From Gemmatimonadota bacterium (GTDB lineage: Bacteria; JAAXHH01): DNA of 37,034 nucleotides. The notes beneath the pieces were generated by a model. That model made no database searches and had not been told where the DNA came from. It saw nothing but the letters and a program-made list of their open reading frames with translations. Below, in pieces: positions 1,133-18,061 of this stretch. Each line of letters begins with the position of its first letter. The first letter of the stretch is position 1. The translations under genes and the position numbers were made by a program. The stretch covers positions 1 through 37,034 of the forward strand of contig JAPPBT010000073.1 in NCBI GenBank assembly GCA_026702745.1, read 5' to 3'.

Positions 1133-2404
1133 CTAACCCTGGCTCGAGCCTCCCAGGATATCCTCGAGTTCATTCACGAAGACCTCGAGTTCATCGGGCT
1201 TGCCGATGGTTACCCGCAGGTGGTTGCCGAGGAGATCGATTTCCCGGGTACGGTATCCGGAACCGCTCCGAACCATGACGCCGCGCCTGAACAGTGCGCC
1301 GGACATCCGGCGGCTGTCGCGCCCGACGTTCACGATCATGTAGTTACCGTGACTCGGCGTGTATTCCAGTCCCAGACGGTCGAACTCGGCGGACAGGTAG
1401 TCCTTGCCGTCGTTCACGACCGACAGTGTACGGTCGACGAATTCATCGTCGTCAATGGCCGCAAGCGCCGCGTGCATGCCCAGCGTGCTCAAACCCCCGC
1501 CGAAGAATCCCATGTGCGCCATCAGCATATCCATCATGCGCTGGCCGCCGACGGCGTAACCGATGCGCATGCCGGCCAGGCCGTAGATCTTGGAAAAGGT
1601 ACGGGCGACCACCACGTTTTCCCGCTCCAGGGCGAGTTTGACGGCATCCTGGTAGTTCGGGTCGCGAACGAAGTGAATATAGGCTTCGTCGATGAGCACG
1701 ATGGCCTGCTCGGGCGCCGCATCCACCAGCGACACCAGTTCGTCGTAGGGCACGATCGTTCCGGTGGGATTGTTGGGATTGGTGACGACGATCAGGGACG
1801 TTTTCGGGGTGATGGCCGCTTTCATGGCGCCGAGATCATGTACGAAATCACCCGTAGTCGGCACGCGGACGACACTGACGTCCTTCCCCATCATCTGAAA
1901 ACTCTGAAAGCCCCGGGCGACCGATCCGTATCCCGGTACCGCCTCGATGCATTCTCCGCCGTTGCCCGCGGCGATGACGGCGAGCGCTTGAAGAATGGGA
2001 CCGGAACCCGGCGTGACCATGACTCGGTTCAACTCACGAAAACGCATGAACGACCGCATGTCTTCAAAACTCAGTTCGAAACCCTCGACGCCCGGGACAT
2101 CGTGCATCTTGTTGAGGCGGACGGGCAGGTCCACACCGAAATCGTACCGGTTGATCTTGTGCAGGTTCTCGGCGATGGCCGCGACCGCGCGCGGGGATGC
2201 GCCGAGGGGATTCTCATTGGAACCGATATTGACCCGGCCCGGCTCGACGCCGTATCCGCGGACGTCGCCGGCCTTCTTCCCGGTCGCCATCGCCTGCGCG
2301 ATGTCCCACGCAGAGCCGGTGGCCACGGCGCCGGCGCCAAGCAAGGCGCCCTTCATGAACCGCCGCCGCGTAAAGCCGTTTTTAAGTGCACTCGCGAAAC
2401 CCAT
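1133..2404 (-). CDS. Tat-exported HisC-like PLP aminotransferase
   Basis: A 423-residue class I/II (fold type I) aminotransferase closest in motifs to histidinol-phosphate aminotransferases. Visible motifs are TNPNNPTG at about 208-215, IDEAY at 238-242 with the PLP-ring Asp and Tyr, and FSKIYGLAGMRIGY at 270-283 with the Schiff-base Lys272. The N-terminus carries a textbook twin-arginine signal (TRRRFMKGALLGAGA, residues 12-26) followed by an Ala-rich stretch, unusual for an enzyme family that is normally cytoplasmic. The ATG at 2404 is chosen because GGAGG lies 7 nt upstream; the upstream in-frame ATG at 2410 sits too close to it. It is the last gene of a three-gene operon with a GMC flavoprotein and a gluconate dehydrogenase subunit 3. 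Substrate unknown; Tat would export it folded with PLP bound. Family certain, export likely. Confidence 0.9.
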   Translation of the reverse strand: MGFASALKNGFTRRRFMKGALLGAGAVATGSAWDIAQAMATGKKAGDVRGYGVEPGRVNIGSNENPLGASPRAVAAIAENLHKINRYDFGVDLPVRLNKMHDVPGVEGFELSFEDMRSFMRFRELNRVMVTPGSGPILQALAVIAAGNGGECIEAVPGYGSVARGFQSFQMMGKDVSVVRVPTTGDFVHDLGAMKAAITPKTSLIVVTNPNNPTGTIVPYDELVSLVDAAPEQAIVLIDEAYIHFVRDPNYQDAVKLALERENVVVARTFSKIYGLAGMRIGYAVGGQRMMDMLMAHMGFFGGGLSTLGMHAALAAIDDDEFVDRTLSVVNDGKDYLSAEFDRLGLEYTPSHGNYMIVNVGRDSRRMSGALFRRGVMVRSGSGYRTREIDLLGNHLRVTIGKPDELEVFVNELEDILGGSSQG

Positions 2405-2458
2405 GATCATGCCTCCACAGTTAAAAGTGACCAATACACGTTCTGAAGCTCGAACCTG

Positions 2459-4123
2459 CTACCTGATATTCAGCCTGGCCATCTGGGTGACGATGTAGTC
2501 CGCGCAGCGGAAGGCCAGCGCCTGAATCGTCAGCGTCGGGTTGCTCTTGCCGCTGGTGACGAAAGACGATCCGTCCACGATGAACAGGTTGTCCACGTCG
2601 TGGGCCTGGTTGAACTTGTTGACCACCGACGTCGCCGGATCGTTGCCCATACGGCAGGTGCCCATGAGATGGGCGTCGCCGCGGGGGACGAAGTTCGGCG
2701 AGGCCACGACCCCGTGGGCGCCGGCGGCATCGAGCAGTTCCCGGGCGCGTTCACGGAAGAAGTCCCCGAGTTTATGTTCGTTGGGATGCACGTTGTAGGT
2801 CACGCGCGGGACGGGAAGGCCCCACTTGTCCTTCACGTCGGGGTCGAGGTCGATCGTATTGGATTCCTGAGACATGGACTGCATGCTGGTGAGGGCGACC
2901 ATGTACCGGGTGTAATTGTCCATGATCCACTTCTTGCGCCGGGCGCCCCACCTGCGCAACCGCGGCATGTTCAGGTTGGCGAAGGAAATGGTCTCGCCGT
3001 CGCCCCGAGGTTCGACTACGCCCCCGCCGAAGAAACCGTACTTGTCCGGGTCCGGGTCGTAGAAATCCTGGATGATCCGGGAGTCCATGACGCCCTTGTA
3101 CTCGTTCAGGTCCTTCTCGAAGAAGCCCCGGGCGGACTGGTAGTAGTTGAACATCAGGTGCTTGCCTACCTTGCCGCTGCTGTTGGCCAGGCCGTCCGGA
3201 AAGAGATTGGACTTCGACATGAGCAGCAGGCGCGGAGTATGGACGCCGTTGCAGCACACGATCACCGCGCGGGCCTCCAGCCGGTGCTCGCGCAGGTCCT
3301 TGTCTAGGTAGATGACCCCTTCCGCCCTGCCGTCTTCATCGACCACGATCTCCCGCACGCAGGCATCGGCACGGATCTGGCAGTTGCCCGTCCGCAGCGC
3401 TTGCGGAATCATGGTGACCAGCATGCTGGACCGTGCCTGGATGGTACAGACGTAGCTTTCGCAGAACCCGCAGTTCATGACCGGCGACCGGCCGCCGTAT
3501 TCCCGCGAGTTGATGGCCAGGGGCGCCGGATAGGAATGCCAGCCGAGTTTCCGGGCGGCCAGGTCGGCCAGGGCGCCCGAACTGGTCCGCGGAACGGGTG
3601 GCATGGGATAGGGCCGGCGGCGCGGCGGATCGAATGGATTGGCGCCGGCCAGACCCGATATGCCCACCTCGTATTCGGCCTTCTCGTAGTAGTGCTCCAG
3701 GTCCCAGTAGTCAATGGGCCAGTCCTGCACGTCGGCGCCGTCCAGGTCGCCGTAGAGGCTTCGCTCCTTGAAATCGTTCTCGTGAAGCCGCCATGAAATG
3801 CCCGTGTAGTGGAGCGTGCTGCCGCCGACCGTGCTCTGCATGTGGATCCCGTGATCCTCGGCGGCCTGCTCATCCGCCGACTGCCGGTACGTATTGGGCT
3901 GGTCGTGGCGGTAGATGTTGGGATGGTCAGGATTGTTGCTGGCGGGATGCATCGCCTGAAGCTCGTCCTGGTCGAAATGGCGGGTCTTAAGAAAAGATCC
4001 CATTTCCATGGCGACCACGCGCAGTCCCTTCGTGCTCAATTCCTTCGCCAGGACCGCGCCCGCGGCACCGGTACCGATGATGATCACGTCCGGCCGTCGT
4101 ATGTTTGGATTGGGTAGGGACAT
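2459..4123 (-). CDS. GMC-family FAD oxidoreductase (gluconate 2-dehydrogenase large-subunit type)
   Basis: A 554-residue flavoprotein. The N-terminal Rossmann motif IIGTGAAGAVLAKEL (from about residue 15) binds FAD. The C-terminal block (HLMGTCRMG, then FIVDGSSFVTSGKSNPT) is the GMC signature region carrying the catalytic His/Asn area. There is no signal peptide of its own. In gluconate 2-dehydrogenase-type complexes the large subunit is known to be carried out by the Tat signal of the small subunit, and here that partner is the gene directly upstream (stop-to-start gap 13 bp). Expected role: periplasmic oxidation of an alcohol, sugar or sugar acid, with electrons passed to a cytochrome. No cytochrome c subunit gene is in the operon, so the acceptor is unknown. 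Substrate cannot be read from sequence. Confidence 0.9.
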   Translation of the reverse strand: MSLPNPNIRRPDVIIIGTGAAGAVLAKELSTKGLRVVAMEMGSFLKTRHFDQDELQAMHPASNNPDHPNIYRHDQPNTYRQSADEQAAEDHGIHMQSTVGGSTLHYTGISWRLHENDFKERSLYGDLDGADVQDWPIDYWDLEHYYEKAEYEVGISGLAGANPFDPPRRRPYPMPPVPRTSSGALADLAARKLGWHSYPAPLAINSREYGGRSPVMNCGFCESYVCTIQARSSMLVTMIPQALRTGNCQIRADACVREIVVDEDGRAEGVIYLDKDLREHRLEARAVIVCCNGVHTPRLLLMSKSNLFPDGLANSSGKVGKHLMFNYYQSARGFFEKDLNEYKGVMDSRIIQDFYDPDPDKYGFFGGGVVEPRGDGETISFANLNMPRLRRWGARRKKWIMDNYTRYMVALTSMQSMSQESNTIDLDPDVKDKWGLPVPRVTYNVHPNEHKLGDFFRERARELLDAAGAHGVVASPNFVPRGDAHLMGTCRMGNDPATSVVNKFNQAHDVDNLFIVDGSSFVTSGKSNPTLTIQALAFRCADYIVTQMARLNIR

Positions 4124-4136
4124 GGAGGCTTAGGAG

Positions 4137-4817
4137 CTACTCCTCGCCGATGATCCGGCTCTTCATGGGACCGTCGTAGGGTTTCCATTCGGGATATTCG
4201 GTTTCGGGAATGGTCATGTCGAATTCGCTGAAAGGGGGATCGTAGCCAAAGGGCGCCCGGCCCGGAAACCGGATCAGCTTCCAGCCGGTCTCGCGGTAGT
4301 TGCCGCCATACGACGGATCGCTGAACATGCCTTCCATGGTATGGGTAACCACCGTGCGCAGGAAGTCCCGGGCGCCCATGGGGGCGTCCTCCGGCCAGGT
4401 CCCGGGAGACCTCGGGCGGTCCATGCCCATCAGCGCCCGACGTTGTGTCCTTGCGTCCAGGTCCAGGAAAGGTGCTTCGTGCGCATTCAGGCAGTACTGA
4501 TCGAAAGCGGCCAGGCCCGATTCATACGTCTCCCTGTATTCGGCCCTGTGTGCGCCCAGCGCCCGGTCGATATAGACGACTACCCGGGCTTCCGCCGCAC
4601 CCGGACCGTTGTCGTCGGACGGCATGATCATACGGGTCAGCGCGTCGACGGTACGTCCCTTGTGCGCGTCCAGGTGCCGCCATTCGTGTTCGAAGGGTGG
4701 TGCTTCCTGGGCGTCCAGCGCGCCGGTACGGGACAGCACGCCGAGGGTGATCACACCCCCGGTCGCCTGTGCCGTGCTGGCGATAAACGACCGGCGGGAA
4801 TAGCGCGTCTTCGTCAT
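4137..4817 (-). CDS. Gluconate 2-dehydrogenase subunit 3 family protein with Tat signal
   Basis: A 226-residue small subunit. Residues 7-12 (SRRSFI) plus a hydrophobic stretch and a likely cleavage region (LDAQEAP) form a Tat signal. The mature part matches the family pattern: LTRMIMPSDDNGPGA early, a central RALMGMD segment, and a C-terminal PFGYDPPFSEFD region. This family forms a complex with a GMC flavoprotein, here the next gene. The ATG at 4817 has GGAG about 12 nt upstream, and a promoter candidate lies at 4872-4901. It is the first gene of the minus-strand operon, divergent from the LD-carboxypeptidase gene. Its likely roles are to give the complex its Tat export signal and to stabilise the flavoprotein. 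Confidence 0.85.
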   Translation of the reverse strand: MTKTRYSRRSFIASTAQATGGVITLGVLSRTGALDAQEAPPFEHEWRHLDAHKGRTVDALTRMIMPSDDNGPGAAEARVVVYIDRALGAHRAEYRETYESGLAAFDQYCLNAHEAPFLDLDARTQRRALMGMDRPRSPGTWPEDAPMGARDFLRTVVTHTMEGMFSDPSYGGNYRETGWKLIRFPGRAPFGYDPPFSEFDMTIPETEYPEWKPYDGPMKSRIIGEE

Positions 4818-5015: not shown

Positions 5016-5972
5016 ATGGATATTTTGAAACCGCCGGCATTGAAACCGGGCGATACTGTCGGGATCGTCGCACCGGCCAGCCGCTCCGCCCTGCCGAGCG
5101 CCCTGAAGAACGGCCGCCGGTCGATAGAAGCCCTTGGATACCGCACGGTGACCGCCCCACACCTGGCGGACCGTCACGGATTCCTGGCCGGCAGGGACGC
5201 CGACCGCATGGACGACCTCCAGGCCATGTTCGCCGACCCGGAAATCCAGGCAATCGTTTGTCTTCGCGGGGGGTACGGTTCCGTCCGCATGCTGCCCCAC
5301 CTGGATTTCGACGTTATCCGCACCCATCCGAAGGTCTTTGTCGGCTACAGCGACATCACGGCCCTCCACGGGGCGATACAACAGCATACGGGACTGGTCA
5401 CCTTCTGGGGCCCCATGGTCTCTTCCGACATGAGCCCCGTTTTTCAACCCTTTAACCGGGATGCCTTTGTGAAGGCGATTGCCGGAACCGATCCCGTCGG
5501 TGAGATTCCGCACCCCGAAGACATGCCGCCGGTGCAGACCCTGTGCGGCGGCCGGGCCAGCGGCCCGCTGATCGGGGGTACGCTTTCGCTGCTCTCGGCC
5601 GCCGTGGGAACTCCCTATGAATTCGACTACGAGGGCGCCGTCCTGTTCTTCGAGGATGTGGGCGAAGAGCCCCACCGCATCGACCGGATGCTCACGCAAC
5701 TGCTGCAGGCGGACCGGCTGAACCGGGTCTCCGGCATCGTGATCGGCGAATGCGCCGGGTGTGGCAGCGCGCCGCACAACCCCGCGTTCCCCTACGGCAG
5801 TTTCAGTATCGAGGAAGTGTTCATCGACCGGCTGCAACCCCTCGGAATCCCGGTAATCTACGGTCTGGGCATTGGCCACGGCACGTACAAGGCGACGCTG
5901 CCCCTCGGTGTGCGGGCCTCGATTGACGGGGATGCCGGCACCCTCACAATCGAAGAATCGGGCGTCATTTAA
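5016..5972 (+). CDS. LD-carboxypeptidase family protein (peptidase S66)
   Basis: At 318 residues it is the usual family length. The S66 Ser-Glu-His triad can be placed: Ser112 in GYSDITALH, Glu217 in EDVGEEPHRIDRML, and His288 in YGLGIGHG. The substrate-binding RGGYGS motif is at about 84-89. Family members cleave the L-Lys/mDAP to D-Ala bond of tetrapeptides in peptidoglycan recycling (LdcA) or detoxify microcin C-type compounds (MccF); sequence alone does not separate these. No signal peptide, so cytoplasmic. It opens a plus-strand run of seven genes. There is no clear Shine-Dalgarno, and the promoter lies very close to the ATG. The homologous N-terminus (LKPPALKPGDTVGIVAPAS) supports this start. 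Confidence 0.88.
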   Translation: MDILKPPALKPGDTVGIVAPASRSALPSALKNGRRSIEALGYRTVTAPHLADRHGFLAGRDADRMDDLQAMFADPEIQAIVCLRGGYGSVRMLPHLDFDVIRTHPKVFVGYSDITALHGAIQQHTGLVTFWGPMVSSDMSPVFQPFNRDAFVKAIAGTDPVGEIPHPEDMPPVQTLCGGRASGPLIGGTLSLLSAAVGTPYEFDYEGAVLFFEDVGEEPHRIDRMLTQLLQADRLNRVSGIVIGECAGCGSAPHNPAFPYGSFSIEEVFIDRLQPLGIPVIYGLGIGHGTYKATLPLGVRASIDGDAGTLTIEESGVI

Positions 5973-6030: not shown

Positions 6031-6972
6031 ATGGCCATTCACATTTTGCTGGACGTACCCCTGCCGGACTCGGTAATGAAACTCGTCGATGACGGGTACC
6101 TGTTTCATATGCTCGACGACCTGGCCGATGGAGACCCAAGGTGGCGCCTCGTCGACGCCTATCTCACCTATGGCCATCCCCCCACGGACGGGGAGGTGAT
6201 GGACCGCATGCCGAACCTGAAGGTCATCAGCAATTTCGGAGTAGGCGTCGATCATATCGACACGGAAGCGGCCCGCAAGCGCGGGATTCCGGTGGGAAAT
6301 ACGCCCCACATGCTCGACGGCGCTACGGCGGACATGACCTTTACCCTCCTGATGGCGGCGGCACGGCGCGTCGTCGTGGGCGACCGGTTCGCCCGGAGCC
6401 CCGGGTTCACTCATTACGACCCCAGCATTCTTCACGGACACGAAGTGCATGGGAGCACCATCGGCATCATCGGCATGGGAAGCATCGGGAAGCAAGTCGC
6501 CCGGCGGGCGGGCGGGTTCGACATGGAGATCGTCTATCACAACCGGAAGCCTGACCCGGATGACCACCTCTATCGTGCCCGGTATGTCTCGCTGGAGGCG
6601 CTACTCGAGATCTCGGATTTCGTGACGTTGAACTGCCCGCTCACAGAGGAGACGCGGGAACTGATCAACAGAGCCGCGTTGCGGCGAATGAAAAAGACCG
6701 CCATCCTGATCAATCTGGCCCGGGGCGCCGTAGTGGATCATGACGCCCTCCACCATGCCCTGAGTAACGGCTGGATCGCCGCGGCCGCTTTGGACGTCAC
6801 CGAACCGGAGCCCCTGCCGCGGGATCACCCCCTGCTTGAACTGGACAACCTGGTGATCGCGCCGCATCTGGGCAGCGCGACCACGCGCACACGCGACGCG
6901 ATGGCTCGGAGGACGGTCGAGAACCTTAAGGCGGGACTCGCCGGTCAGCCCCTTACGAGCTTCGTCGCCTGA
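6031..6972 (+). CDS. D-isomer-specific 2-hydroxyacid dehydrogenase
   Basis: 313 residues. The NAD(P)-binding motif GIIGMGSIGKQVA (145-157) follows the N-terminal catalytic segment ISNFGVGVDHID (66-77). Catalytic residues: Arg231 in INLARGAVVD, the Glu of DVTEPEPLP (about 258-260), and His279 in APHLGSAT. The pattern resembles glyoxylate/hydroxypyruvate or 2-ketogluconate reductases. In this run it could reduce a 2-keto acid made by the neighbouring dehydratase pathway, which is inference. It lies 58 bp after the S66 gene, and its stop is 7 nt before the next start. The start ATG 6031 fits the family N-terminus; no strong Shine-Dalgarno is present. Confidence 0.9.
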   Translation: MAIHILLDVPLPDSVMKLVDDGYLFHMLDDLADGDPRWRLVDAYLTYGHPPTDGEVMDRMPNLKVISNFGVGVDHIDTEAARKRGIPVGNTPHMLDGATADMTFTLLMAAARRVVVGDRFARSPGFTHYDPSILHGHEVHGSTIGIIGMGSIGKQVARRAGGFDMEIVYHNRKPDPDDHLYRARYVSLEALLEISDFVTLNCPLTEETRELINRAALRRMKKTAILINLARGAVVDHDALHHALSNGWIAAAALDVTEPEPLPRDHPLLELDNLVIAPHLGSATTRTRDAMARRTVENLKAGLAGQPLTSFVA

Positions 6973-13981: not shown

Positions 13982-14011
13982 TTGAACAGGCGGCATCGAA
14001 GGTCCTATCAC
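13982..14011 (+). promoter_or_regulatory. Candidate promoter for the lamin-tail-domain gene
   Basis: TTGAAC (13982-13987), an 18-bp spacer and TATCAC (14006-14011). The leader of about 27 nt would include the AAGGAG site of the ATG at 14045. The -10 box matches at only four of six positions. Confidence 0.4.
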
Positions 14012-14044
14012 CCGAATCACCATCATCAGAAGGAGTTCCCTATC

Positions 14045-15742
14045 ATGATTCGAAAGCACCATCTAGCCACTGCCTTTCTATGCCTCGGTTTCGCGGGGAA
14101 TGCCGCGGGTGCGGGCATCGTCATTTCCGAGGTATTGGCCGATCCCCATTCGGAATCCACAGGAGAGTTCGTCGAACTATACAACGCGGGAAACGAACCG
14201 GTGGATCTCGAAGGTTGGTTACTCGGCGATTCGAGGGATGTGAACGACACGATTACAGACTTCACCGGTCCTCATGACGCCGGCCTCGCGGGAACGGTGC
14301 TGGAGCCGGGTGCTTTCGCGCTGGTCGTCGATCCGGACTACGAAGGCGAATATAACGATCGGATCATGGCTGAGGGTGATCCCACGCGTCTTTTGATCCT
14401 GACGATCAAGGGAGACCGGACACTGGGCAATGGACTCGGGAACAGTGGAGACCTGGTCTTCCTGAAAAGAGACGATGTTACGATCGACCAGTTCGCATGG
14501 ACCGAATCGGCGGGCGGCAACGGTATCTCGTGGGAGCGGCCGCGATACGACCTTCCCGTGGAGGAGTCCAATCTATTGCCGTCTACCCACCCCGACGGAT
14601 CCACTCCGGGGTTCCGAAGCAGCACGGCGAGCGACCCTCCTCCCACACCCGTGCCGGAGGAGCCCCAGCAGCCCGGGGAGCCCGAGGAACCGGAGGAACC
14701 CCAGGAGCCCCAGGAACCGGAGGAGCCCCAGGAGCCCACGCGGCCCGAGGAACCTACACTACCGGAGGAACCCGCGCAGCCCAAGGAACCTACACAACCG
14801 GAGGAACTCGAAGAACCGGCGGAACCCACTGAGCCGGAAGAGCCCGAAGCGCCAGTGACGCCGGCGATGCCAGAGGAACCCGCACAGCCGGAGGAACCAG
14901 AGGAACCCATGTCGCCTCACGACTCCGGAAGCTCGCTGGAAAACGTTGTGATCAATGAAATCATGTTCAACCCCGGCCCCAACGGGACCGAATGGATTGA
15001 GTTGCACAACAGGGGGAGCGACACAGTCAACCTTGCTGGCGGTGCGCTGCGGCTGGATCACGTGGAGCGTGCGCGCCTCATCTCCCCGGGCGATCTCACC
15101 ATCGAAGGCCAGGGATACCTCGTCATCGCCCATGATGCCGTCCTGTTCCGGGAAACGCATCCCGGTTTCGGCGGAACCGTGGTGGAAGCGACGGGCGGCT
15201 GGGAAAGGCTTCGGAACAGCGGTGCAAGGATCTGGCTGCTGGACGCAATGGGCACACCCGTCCACGATGCAGAATACGACGAGGCTTCGAACCCCGTTCC
15301 GGGTCGATCCGTGGAACTGGTCAATCCGGACTTCGATCCACCGGTCTGGGGACCCTCCGCCGATGCGAACGGCAGTACGCCGGGCCGGCGGAACGCACTC
15401 TATGTATCCCGCATACCGGACGGCATCTCGGTACATATAAGCAACAACCCATTCTCCCCCGATGGCGATAACTACGAAGACGTCTGCCTGGTGACGGTCG
15501 ACCTGCCCGCGTCCCACGGTATACTTCACGCCATGGTTTTCGATATCCAGGGTCGGTTTCTCAAAACGCTCATCGATCAGGCGACGGTAGCAAGCCGGCA
15601 TGTCTTTACCTGGAACGGAACGGATCAGTACGGACGAGGGTTGCCCGCCGGTCCATATATTCTATACTTGGAACAGATGCTCCCCACACTCGACAGGTTG
15701 ACTGCTTCCAGGCACCTGGTCGTAATCGCCGCTTCGCCATGA
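14045..15742 (+). CDS. Secreted protein with two lamin-tail domains, Pro-Glu linker and FlgD-Ig-like end
   Basis: 565 residues. A Sec signal peptide (MIRKHHLATAFLCLGFAG, probable cut near residue 22) is followed by a lamin-tail domain at about 24-190 (GIVISEVLADP, EFVELYNAGNEPVDLEGW). A linker rich in EEP/QEP units covers 204-288. A second lamin-tail domain spans about 297-470 (NVVINEIMFNP, EWIELHNRGSDTVNL). The C-terminus (NPFSPDGDNYEDVC, then TWNGTDQYGRGLPAGPYIL) resembles FlgD-Ig/T9SS-type beta-sandwich ends. Such proteins are extracellular or surface-attached, and catalytic function is not evident. AAGGAG precedes the ATG by about 10 nt; an upstream in-frame TTG at 13982 falls in the promoter and is rejected. 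The stop codon lies inside a 17-bp tandem duplication. Confidence 0.85.
   Translation: MIRKHHLATAFLCLGFAGNAAGAGIVISEVLADPHSESTGEFVELYNAGNEPVDLEGWLLGDSRDVNDTITDFTGPHDAGLAGTVLEPGAFALVVDPDYEGEYNDRIMAEGDPTRLLILTIKGDRTLGNGLGNSGDLVFLKRDDVTIDQFAWTESAGGNGISWERPRYDLPVEESNLLPSTHPDGSTPGFRSSTASDPPPTPVPEEPQQPGEPEEPEEPQEPQEPEEPQEPTRPEEPTLPEEPAQPKEPTQPEELEEPAEPTEPEEPEAPVTPAMPEEPAQPEEPEEPMSPHDSGSSLENVVINEIMFNPGPNGTEWIELHNRGSDTVNLAGGALRLDHVERARLISPGDLTIEGQGYLVIAHDAVLFRETHPGFGGTVVEATGGWERLRNSGARIWLLDAMGTPVHDAEYDEASNPVPGRSVELVNPDFDPPVWGPSADANGSTPGRRNALYVSRIPDGISVHISNNPFSPDGDNYEDVCLVTVDLPASHGILHAMVFDIQGRFLKTLIDQATVASRHVFTWNGTDQYGRGLPAGPYILYLEQMLPTLDRLTASRHLVVIAASP
14654..14908 (+). repeat. Pro-Glu low-complexity coding repeat
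   Basis: About 85 codons built from degenerate 9-bp and 6-bp units of the type GAGGAACCG / GAGCCCCAG, coding EEP, QEP and EPT triplets. It links the two lamin-tail domains. Imperfect units suggest growth and contraction by slippage followed by drift. Confidence 0.85.
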
Positions 15743-16942: not shown

Positions 16943-18061
16943 ATGGACAAGTTAAAGCGACGCGAGTTTCTAAAGACGGCATCCACGGCCGGACTGGCCG
17001 GTGGGGCCGCACTGATGGCGGGTTGCGGGTCCGGGCAGGAGAGCAGCGGCCCCGCCATCCGTACGGACAGGACCTATGAGTGGAAAATGGTCACCACCTG
17101 GACACCGAATCTGCCCATACTTCAGGAGAGTGCGCGACTCCTTTCCCAATGGGTGGAGGAAATGTCCGAGGGGAGGATGAAGATCACGGTGTATGCGGGC
17201 GGCGAGTTGATCCCTGCCCTCGAGGGATTCGAAGCAGTCAGCCAGGGTGTGGCGGAAATGGGACACGGCGCTGCGTACTACTGGGCGGGGAAGGCGCCCG
17301 CCACGCAGTTCTTCTCTTCGGTGCCCTTCGGGATGAACGCGCAACAGGTCACCGCCTGGCTCTACAGCGGCGGCGGGCTGGAACTATGGGAGGAAATCTA
17401 CGCGCCTTTCAATCTGATCCCCATGCCCGCGGGCAATACCGGCTTCCAGATGGGAGGCTGGTTCAGGAAGGAAATCAACACCGCCGACGACCTCCAGGGA
17501 CTGAAGATGCGGATACCGGGCCTGGGGGGCGACGTGATCAAGCGGGCGGGCGGTTCGGCCATACTGTCGCCCGTCGGAGAGATCTACACCAACCTCGAAC
17601 GCGGCGTCATCGACGCGACCGAGTGGATCGGTCCGTACCACGATTATCTCATGGGCTTCTACCGGGCGGCCCAGTACTACTACTATCCGGGTTGGCATGA
17701 GCCGGGCACCGTGACCGAACTGATGGTCAACAAGAGCGCTTTCGAGGAACTGCCGGCCTATCTGCAGACGGTGATCCGGACCGCGGCAGCCCGTTCGACC
17801 CACTGGGTGCTGTCCGAATTCGACGCCCGGAACAACGAGTACCTTCAGAAGCTGGTCAATGAAGAAGGGGTGCAGCTCAGGCGCTTTCCGGATTCAGTGC
17901 TCACTACCCTCAAGGGATACTCGGAAGAAGTCATCGCCCAGTTGATCGAAACGGACGAAGACAGCAGACGGGTGTATGAGTCCTTCACATCATTCCGGAA
18001 CACGGTTTCCGGATGGACGGACCTGGGAGAGAAGATCTACTACTCGGGCGCCATGGGGTAG
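16943..18061 (+). CDS. TRAP transporter solute-binding protein (DctP/TakP type), Tat lipoprotein
   Basis: 372 residues. Residues 5-11 (KRREFLK) plus the hydrophobic run form a Tat signal that ends in a lipobox (LMAGC, Cys28), so this is a Tat-exported lipoprotein. The mature part is a DctP fold. DLQGLKMRIPGLGGDVI carries the conserved Arg that binds substrate carboxylates, and WIGPYHDYLMGF and YYYPGWHEPG are typical of the TakP (2-oxo acid) branch. GGAGGAAGAGG directly precedes the ATG. No DctQ or DctM membrane genes are in the window, so partners are encoded elsewhere. The substrate is probably a monocarboxylate or 2-oxo acid (inference). The gene converges on the beta-propeller gene with a 19-bp gap. 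Confidence 0.9.
   Translation: MDKLKRREFLKTASTAGLAGGAALMAGCGSGQESSGPAIRTDRTYEWKMVTTWTPNLPILQESARLLSQWVEEMSEGRMKITVYAGGELIPALEGFEAVSQGVAEMGHGAAYYWAGKAPATQFFSSVPFGMNAQQVTAWLYSGGGLELWEEIYAPFNLIPMPAGNTGFQMGGWFRKEINTADDLQGLKMRIPGLGGDVIKRAGGSAILSPVGEIYTNLERGVIDATEWIGPYHDYLMGFYRAAQYYYYPGWHEPGTVTELMVNKSAFEELPAYLQTVIRTAAARSTHWVLSEFDARNNEYLQKLVNEEGVQLRRFPDSVLTTLKGYSEEVIAQLIETDEDSRRVYESFTSFRNTVSGWTDLGEKIYYSGAMG

Follow-up and report, generated by a model that had tools for sequence, protein, structure and literature searches.

Gene organisation of the operon

The DNA analysed here, referred to as the window, is a contig of 37,034 nucleotides from a Gemmatimonadota bacterium (JAPPBT010000073.1, assembly GCA_026702745.1). 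The element of interest is an operon of three minus-strand genes that encodes a two-subunit dehydrogenase and a HisC-like, pyridoxal phosphate (PLP)-dependent aminotransferase with a signal for the twin-arginine translocation (Tat) pathway. Transcription runs from the dehydrogenase small subunit (G3) through the flavin adenine dinucleotide (FAD)-dependent catalytic subunit (GMC) to the aminotransferase (AT), the genes being 13 and 54 nt apart (Table 1). The source genome (3.88 Mb, 96% complete) encodes TatC, and the window contains LptA/LptD-like and lipid A acyltransferase genes, so that an outer membrane and a periplasm are to be expected.

Comparisons were made within 16 genomes of the window's phylum, representing five genera and three families, 12 of them from the window's genus; matches to AT with at least 52% identity were taken as orthologs. 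The longest open reading frame (ORF) of AT opens at TTG 2434; the evidence favours ATG 2404 as the start, which has a GGAGG ribosome site upstream. In 13 of the 14 ortholog rows this site is found 6–8 nt ahead of the aligned ATG, and in genome G013 the ATG is preceded by GGGGAGGG, 15 nt upstream of the aligned start point. As the ribosome site fixes the start at ATG 2404, and is conserved in the ortholog rows, the Tat signal belongs to the AT protein. The initial annotation had described both an operon in this order with a Tat-carrying small subunit, and an aminotransferase with a TRRRFMK motif, an intact PLP-lysine site and a start set by its ribosome site; the former is borne out by the coordinates, the Pfam matches and the RR motif of G3, the latter by the orthologs.

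The ratio of non-synonymous to synonymous substitution rates (dN/dS) is low for all three genes, which are therefore under constraint: 0.07–0.13 for AT (six relatives, the most distant of which, G012, has a saturated dS), 0.02–0.06 for GMC (five relatives) and 0.08–0.17 for G3 (four relatives), the G012 values of the last two being not computable.

Table 1. Features of the operon, its divergent neighbours and related aminotransferases (window numbering unless a locus, L, is named).
Feature	Position	Strand	Basis
AT: PLP aminotransferase of fold type I, HisC-like, Tat-bearing, 423 aa	1133..2404	-	PF00155, 6.7e-45
Tat signal region of AT: TRRRFMK, hydrophobic stretch, AQA; end approximate	2291..2404	-	ortholog alignment
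GGAGG ribosome site of AT, 7 nt upstream of ATG 2404	2412..2416	-	sequence
K272 codon, PLP lysine of AT	1589..1591	-	K in 25 of 26 alignment rows, R in L057
R397 codon, likely alpha-carboxylate arginine of AT	1214..1216	-	unchanged in all 26 rows
GMC: catalytic subunit of an FAD dehydrogenase, 554 aa	2459..4123	-	PF05199 and PF00732
Cys218, Cys221 and Cys226 of GMC, candidate 3Fe-4S ligands	3446..3472	-	invariant in 6 of 6 rows
G3: Gluconate_2-dh3 small subunit, Tat signal YSRRSFI, expected hitchhiker partner of GMC	4137..4817	-	PF13618, 7.5e-27
S66 LD-carboxypeptidase-like divergent neighbour	5016..5972	+	PF02016/PF17676
D-2-hydroxyacid dehydrogenase (glyoxylate or 2-ketogluconate reductase type), divergent neighbour	6031..6972	+	PF02826/PF00389
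Eight further Tat-bearing aminotransferases	L009, L010, L011, L012, L013, L014, L015		differing gene neighbourhoods
Tandem pair among these eight	L011: 8034-9248 and 9295-10509

The aminotransferase and its Tat signal

Tat assignments were made by reading sequences and their conservation, without a signal-peptide predictor. AT has the N-terminal RRxF motif and following hydrophobic stretch of a Tat substrate, and is predicted to be exported by means of this signal of its own. The RR pair and the F are invariant in the 13 aligned orthologs, and the fourteenth (G006) has SRRRFM at its N-terminus; RRxF is thus present in all 14, down to 52–53% identity. Homologous clusters with an aminotransferase lacking the motif, which had been named beforehand as evidence that would count against export, were looked for among these orthologs with no such case found. 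When, as a control for chance, a Tat-like filter was applied to 129 predicted ORFs of at least 120 aa from nine loci, six passed, all of them Tat-bearing aminotransferases; three further aminotransferases and G3 were missed because their predicted starts lie too late.

AT scores 154.3 bits against PF00155 (gathering score 19.7), with K272 and R397 kept. These two residues, together with D239, Y242 and R280, show no variation in the 13 aligned orthologs; going by what is known of the aminotransferase family, they presumably bind PLP and the substrate carboxylate, and R397 is taken to be the alpha-carboxylate arginine by analogy with aspartate aminotransferases. A structure model was built from an alignment of 26 sequences (L061, L062, L064, L070 and L073 were left out) and has a predicted local distance difference test score (pLDDT) of 86, with residues 1–29 below 50. 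Its best structural matches are HisC proteins: 3get (Z 41.4, root-mean-square deviation 1.7, 330 residues aligned), tied with 3ly1 (Z 41.0) and 3ffh (Z 40.7). Other close folds are those of threonine-phosphate decarboxylase (1lc8, Z 37.2) and GntC (8fft, Z 34.7).

No specific family name is reached by score: among the 25 best NCBIfam models listed, AT passes no curated cut-off. Its bit scores are 219.2 for HisC (TIGR01141, cut-off 276.55), 211.5 for PRK09105 (NF006580, cut-off 444) and 157.5 for PtaA (NF051461, cut-off 500). Identification as the cellular HisC is not favoured, given the score below the HisC cut-off and the Tat signal. PtaA and PRK09105 were likewise set aside; the paralogs that were scanned miss these cut-offs as AT does, and none of 17 matches in the window's genome passes that of PtaA (best score 201 bits).

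The dehydrogenase

The closest structures to GMC are Burkholderia cepacia glucose dehydrogenase (6a2u, 7.2e-61) and the large subunit of fructose dehydrogenase (8k6k, 3.1e-58), and G3 scores 94.7 bits against PF13618 (gathering score 23.4), with its RR motif present in all six rows listed. His105, the His485/Asn528 pair and three clustered cysteines of GMC are invariant in six of six rows, and the cysteines fall in the region aligned with the cysteine loop of B. cepacia glucose dehydrogenase (BcGDH). The roles of the FAD-bonding His, the His/Asn pair and the candidate 3Fe-4S ligands are assigned from BcGDH, as given in the available part of its description (PMC6719666). With an FAD-linking His, a His/Asn pair and a Tat-bearing PF13618 subunit, the GMC/G3 pair has these features of the FAD glucose dehydrogenase/gluconate 2-dehydrogenase type. 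Enzymes of the gluconate 2-dehydrogenase kind yield ketones or lactones. The N-terminus of GMC reads without an export signal of its own, and a periplasmic location for GMC and G3 can be proposed with fair confidence.

The multihaem cytochrome c subunit expected for complexes of this type is not in the window operon, where the ORF list and a Pfam scan gave no cytochrome gene at all. The window operon resembles the B. cepacia FAD glucose, fructose and gluconate 2-dehydrogenase type complexes in combining a GMC protein with a Tat-bearing small subunit, and its GMC shares with the FAD glucose dehydrogenase type His105 and the His/Asn pair and has three cysteines in the region of the cysteine loop; it differs in having no multihaem c subunit, in its cysteine spacing and in the added aminotransferase gene.

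In two related genera, represented by G012 and G014, the clusters do hold c-type cytochromes, though of other kinds than that subunit, so that the absence is specific to the lineage of the window; the earlier statement that no cytochrome subunit is present thus holds for the window operon and fails for the cluster overall. The G012 run contains a mono-haem cytochrome c and a NapC/NirT-like protein with three CXXCH motifs, followed after GMC by a protein with four CXXCH motifs, and the G014 cluster has a mono-haem cytochrome c and a NapC/NirT-like protein as in G012. The NapC-like protein of G012 finds a match at 1e-8 in nine of the 16 genomes; within the window's genus six of the 12 genomes have such matches, at 40–41% identity and on contigs other than that of the cluster. 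Two further genes lie beyond the cytochromes of G014. One encodes a RidA-type protein (PF01042; L049:4543-5067) that seems to have a membrane or signal segment at its N-terminus; it belongs to one same-strand run together with GMC, G3 and the cytochromes, and would suit imine chemistry. The other (L049:3841-4350) encodes a globin-like protein with an apparent signal.

Conservation of the cluster

GMC was found in 15 of the 16 genomes, with G3 adjoining it in all 15 (G3 of G011 is cut by a contig end). AT orthologs occur in 14, and 13 of these have AT either adjacent to GMC or within one gene run with it, so that for these genomes the conserved co-occurrence of the three genes, earlier proposed as a check, is supported. 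The linked cases span four genera of two families (f1 and f3), two gene orders and differing flanks. AT directly follows an intact GMC in 11 of the 14 (the window, G002, G003, G004, G005, G007, G008, G010, G011, G013 and G015); in G009 a contig end splits GMC and AT comes after the 3' piece, and in G012 AT lies upstream of G3 within one gene run. In G006 the link is not visible, because GMC ends one contig and AT starts 141 bases into another. The order G3-GMC-AT is that of the window's genus, G013 and G015, and G012 has AT-cytochrome c-NapC-like-G3-GMC-multihaem. The S66 and 2-hydroxyacid dehydrogenase flanks are common to G012 and the genus genomes that were read, and neither has a match in the 11–12 kb read of G013 and G015; this search listed rows above 35% identity, and an unfiltered repeat for L043, L048 and L154 gave the same result. 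Since AT and GMC stay linked where both the gene order and the flanks differ, the link reflects more than shared descent of one block.

Genome G001, in which GMC is missing and the best AT match has 44% identity, was considered as a natural joint deletion and rejected; it is uninformative, because S66 is missing as well (best match 29%) and the whole region is absent or unassembled. Named relatives of AT at 90–92% identity come from metagenome-assembled genomes of 'Candidatus Latescibacterota'; remoter ones are labelled Latescibacterota, Gemmatimonadetes, Zixiibacteriota and Woeseiaceae. Sequence identity links G006 (its contig C369 is the same as L051) and, through identical GMC sequences, G014 and G015 to Latescibacterota records; identical GMC likewise links G012 to an 'uncultured bacterium' and G013 to a Zixiibacteriota-labelled record. 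Amidohydrolase genes adjoin the cluster in G015 (L048:378-2081, with an N-terminal RR motif) and in G013 (L043:1169-2797).

A family of Tat-bearing aminotransferases

AT has 18 matches in the window's genome at 1e-3. All 17 outside the window (the 12 strongest and the five weakest) were read for signals, and eight have a well-placed RRxF signal, giving nine Tat-bearing HisC-like aminotransferases with AT included; none of the five weakest shows a properly placed Tat signal. A tree of 103 rows groups 48 Tat-bearing rows in a single clade of 51 (support 96/96), whose Tat-less members are L016 (from the window's genome), L075 and L067. The remaining 52 rows lie outside the clade and are counted as Tat-less, including, by judgement, L127, whose ARREIF fits a simple Tat pattern. 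Left out were matches of fewer than 200 aligned residues, L111 and L120 (immediate stop on extension), L071 (partial) and L018; L090 and L119 are long-branched and of uncertain placement, and the other branches within the clade are moderately supported. With nine Tat-bearing paralogs in one clade, export is a trait of the family rather than of the operon. Each of the 12 genus genomes has 9–10 AT matches at 1e-45, the signals of which were partly read.

A Tat-bearing paralog of G012 (L057:5109-6308) has arginine at the position of the PLP lysine (TFSRVYG), and may be inactive or altered in its chemistry. The same-strand run L009:3590-10334 comprises a Tat-bearing aminotransferase, an alpha/beta hydrolase, a nitroreductase, a dihydrodipicolinate synthase (DHDPS)-like protein, a Tat-less HisC-like protein and a class III aminotransferase, and looks like an amino-acid pathway. 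In the run L016:4453-11744, the Tat-less clade member is accompanied by DAO, amidase, SNF-type transporter, alanine-racemase/D-serine-dehydratase-like and HisB-like IGPD genes; it may be the genome's HisC.

Relation to known systems

Exported PLP-dependent enzymes have precedents, although few descriptions of aminotransferase-like ones were found in the open-licence literature; what is said here of individual papers refers to the parts of their text that were available. PtaA (periplasmic transaminase A) of Pseudomonas fluorescens (NF051461) is a Tat-exported PLP transaminase whose defining activity is on the glutamate of pyoverdine, and AT is related to it in sequence (3.7e-46); both PtaA and PvdN reach the periplasm via Tat, folded and with PLP bound (PMC6206403). 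AT differs from PtaA in its link to a GMC/G3 dehydrogenase, in being one of nine Tat-bearing paralogs in its genome and in a score below the PtaA cut-off. PvdN of Pseudomonas aeruginosa is aminotransferase-like and a known Tat substrate, resembling AT in its Tat signal (PMC6085387); it is a periplasmic PLP enzyme and differs from the role predicted for AT in carrying out an oxygen-dependent, oxidative decarboxylation in pyoverdine tailoring (PMC6206403, PMC7497351). PA2531, also of P. aeruginosa, appears as 'Aminotransferase' in tables of Tat signals and substrates, with 'This work' as the source (PMC6085387); its likeness to AT is one of description. A dehydrogenase partner of the GMC/G3 type is not named for PvdN or PA2531 in the parts of the cited texts available. 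The alignment of the PRK09105 model with AT begins at model position 3 or 4 and takes in the Tat region, as it does for six of the eight remaining Tat-bearing paralogs.

Neither the pairing of AT with GMC/G3 nor a set of nine exported paralogs was found described in the available open-licence literature. The same literature yielded no paper on a Latescibacterota aminotransferase with a Tat signal, which is not proof of absence; in a paper on sponge Latescibacterota, the words aminotransferase, transaminase, gluconate and periplasm are absent from the main text (PMC12993501). Two views of the initial annotation need qualification. Its premise that aminotransferases are normally cytoplasmic has to be set beside the precedents PvdN, PtaA and PA2531; and its suggestion of an undescribed system applies, as far as the available literature shows, to the pairing and not to the parts. 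AT is moreover one of nine Tat-bearing paralogs. Exported PLP enzymes and GMC/hitchhiker dehydrogenases were already known; what is new is the fixed pairing and the nine-fold set.

Proposed function and alternatives

Gene content, export motifs, retained catalytic residues and conserved linkage can be read directly from the DNA; localisation, electron path, substrates and coupling we infer. In the mechanism proposed, G3 would carry folded GMC through the Tat system (hitchhiker export), and AT would leave by its own signal, folded and with PLP already bound. GMC would act on a small polar compound and oxidise one of its secondary hydroxyls, the likeliest target being the 2-hydroxyl of a sugar acid or another hydroxy acid, and pass electrons through FAD and the candidate Fe-S cluster to c-type cytochromes, such as those that lie within the cluster in two related genera. 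The exchange of amino and keto groups by AT would take place outside the inner membrane, on a substrate that bears a carboxylate. In the simplest form of coupling, a 2-keto acid made by GMC would serve as amino acceptor for AT; it could itself be turned into a 2-amino acid, or could restore PLP from the pyridoxamine form while AT removes amino groups from external amino compounds. A shared keto-acid intermediate is plausible. The initial annotation's idea of a periplasmic oxidation-plus-transamination system is partly supported: the export signal of AT, the hitchhiker-type dehydrogenase in its operon and the co-localisation kept across genera agree with it. That the three genes form a periplasmic module of Latescibacterota-related bacteria, in which the keto product of GMC feeds AT, is the reading preferred here, tentatively and as something just short of probable. 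The narrower proposal, a dedicated oxidise-and-transaminate module that represents one specialised branch of the nine-member exported family, is rather doubtful.

Several observations count against such coupling. No GMC or G3 match (at 1e-5) lies within the 14–18 kb read around the eight other Tat-bearing aminotransferases, so the dehydrogenase is not a requirement for aminotransferases of this family. In G014, where GMC, G3 and cytochromes are present, the best-scoring AT match has only 42% identity (other pieces up to 46%); its contig stops inside GMC, with no AT in the 6 kb on the other side, and AT may be absent or unseen there. The cysteine spacing of GMC is CX2CX4C as against CX5CX3C in BcGDH, and the NapC-like gene, with the G012 protein as query, was not found in the window's genome at 1e-8. 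The neighbouring genes point the same way: the 2-hydroxyacid dehydrogenase is below every NCBIfam cut-off listed and has no match near the cluster in G013 and G015, and the IlvD neighbour has none within 16 kb of G012. As the neighbours that hint at sugar- or keto-acid use are not beside the cluster in all genera, it is we who infer the coupling of GMC and AT.

It is accordingly quite possible that AT and GMC are independent periplasmic enzymes, placed in one operon for the same nutrient class or for regulation, with no intermediate passed between them; AT would then perform general periplasmic transamination of amino acids, as its eight paralogs might. The absence of GMC/G3 matches around those paralogs and the variety of their neighbours (class III aminotransferases, a DHDPS-like gene, an HpcH/HpaI aldolase) agree with this, whereas the persistence of the AT-GMC link through changes of order and flanks speaks against it, and the coupled arrangement is held somewhat above two independent exported enzymes. 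It is improbable that AT is another kind of PLP enzyme (a decarboxylase, an oxidase or a lyase) and tailors a small molecule in the manner of PvdN, with GMC as a second tailoring enzyme: the folds of 1lc8 and GntC and the periplasmic, oxygen-dependent decarboxylation by PvdN (PMC7497351) would suit such a role, but the best sequence and structure matches of AT are named transaminases, and among the window ORFs scanned, a part of the total, there is no siderophore or peptide-synthetase gene. Least probable is a cytoplasmic AT with an unused Tat-like N-terminus. Export is read from sequence alone, and three rows of the clade (L016, L075 and L067) lack the motif; against this stand its retention in every ortholog, the start fixed by the ribosome site, the presence of TatC and the 48 Tat-bearing rows in a single clade.

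Whichever of the exported arrangements applies, the genes suggest some amino-group chemistry outside the inner membrane in these uncultured bacteria. The available part of a review points out that the periplasm needs some means of regenerating PLP (PMC6206403); if the dedicated oxidise-and-transaminate module is real, a keto acid from GMC/G3 would explain its regeneration from the pyridoxamine form, and a large share of amino-group exchange in these bacteria would be periplasmic. Annotation of their amino-acid metabolism would change, HisC models being among the best family matches of these proteins. The operon and the nine paralogs offer a direct test system for periplasmic amino-group chemistry and its partner substrates.

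Neighbouring genes

The best PDB matches of the divergent 2-hydroxyacid dehydrogenase, nearly tied at 8e-71 to 2e-70, include glycerate/glyoxylate reductases together with a probable 2-ketogluconate reductase. A divergent IlvD/Edd dehydratase in the neighbourhood within the genus scores over the PRK06131 cut-off, and both enzymes fit keto- or sugar-acid chemistry in the genus. Elsewhere in the window, positions 13982-15742 encode a protein in which two stretches match the Lamin Tail Domain (PF00932); a gene for a DctP solute-binding protein (16943-18061) lies nearby.

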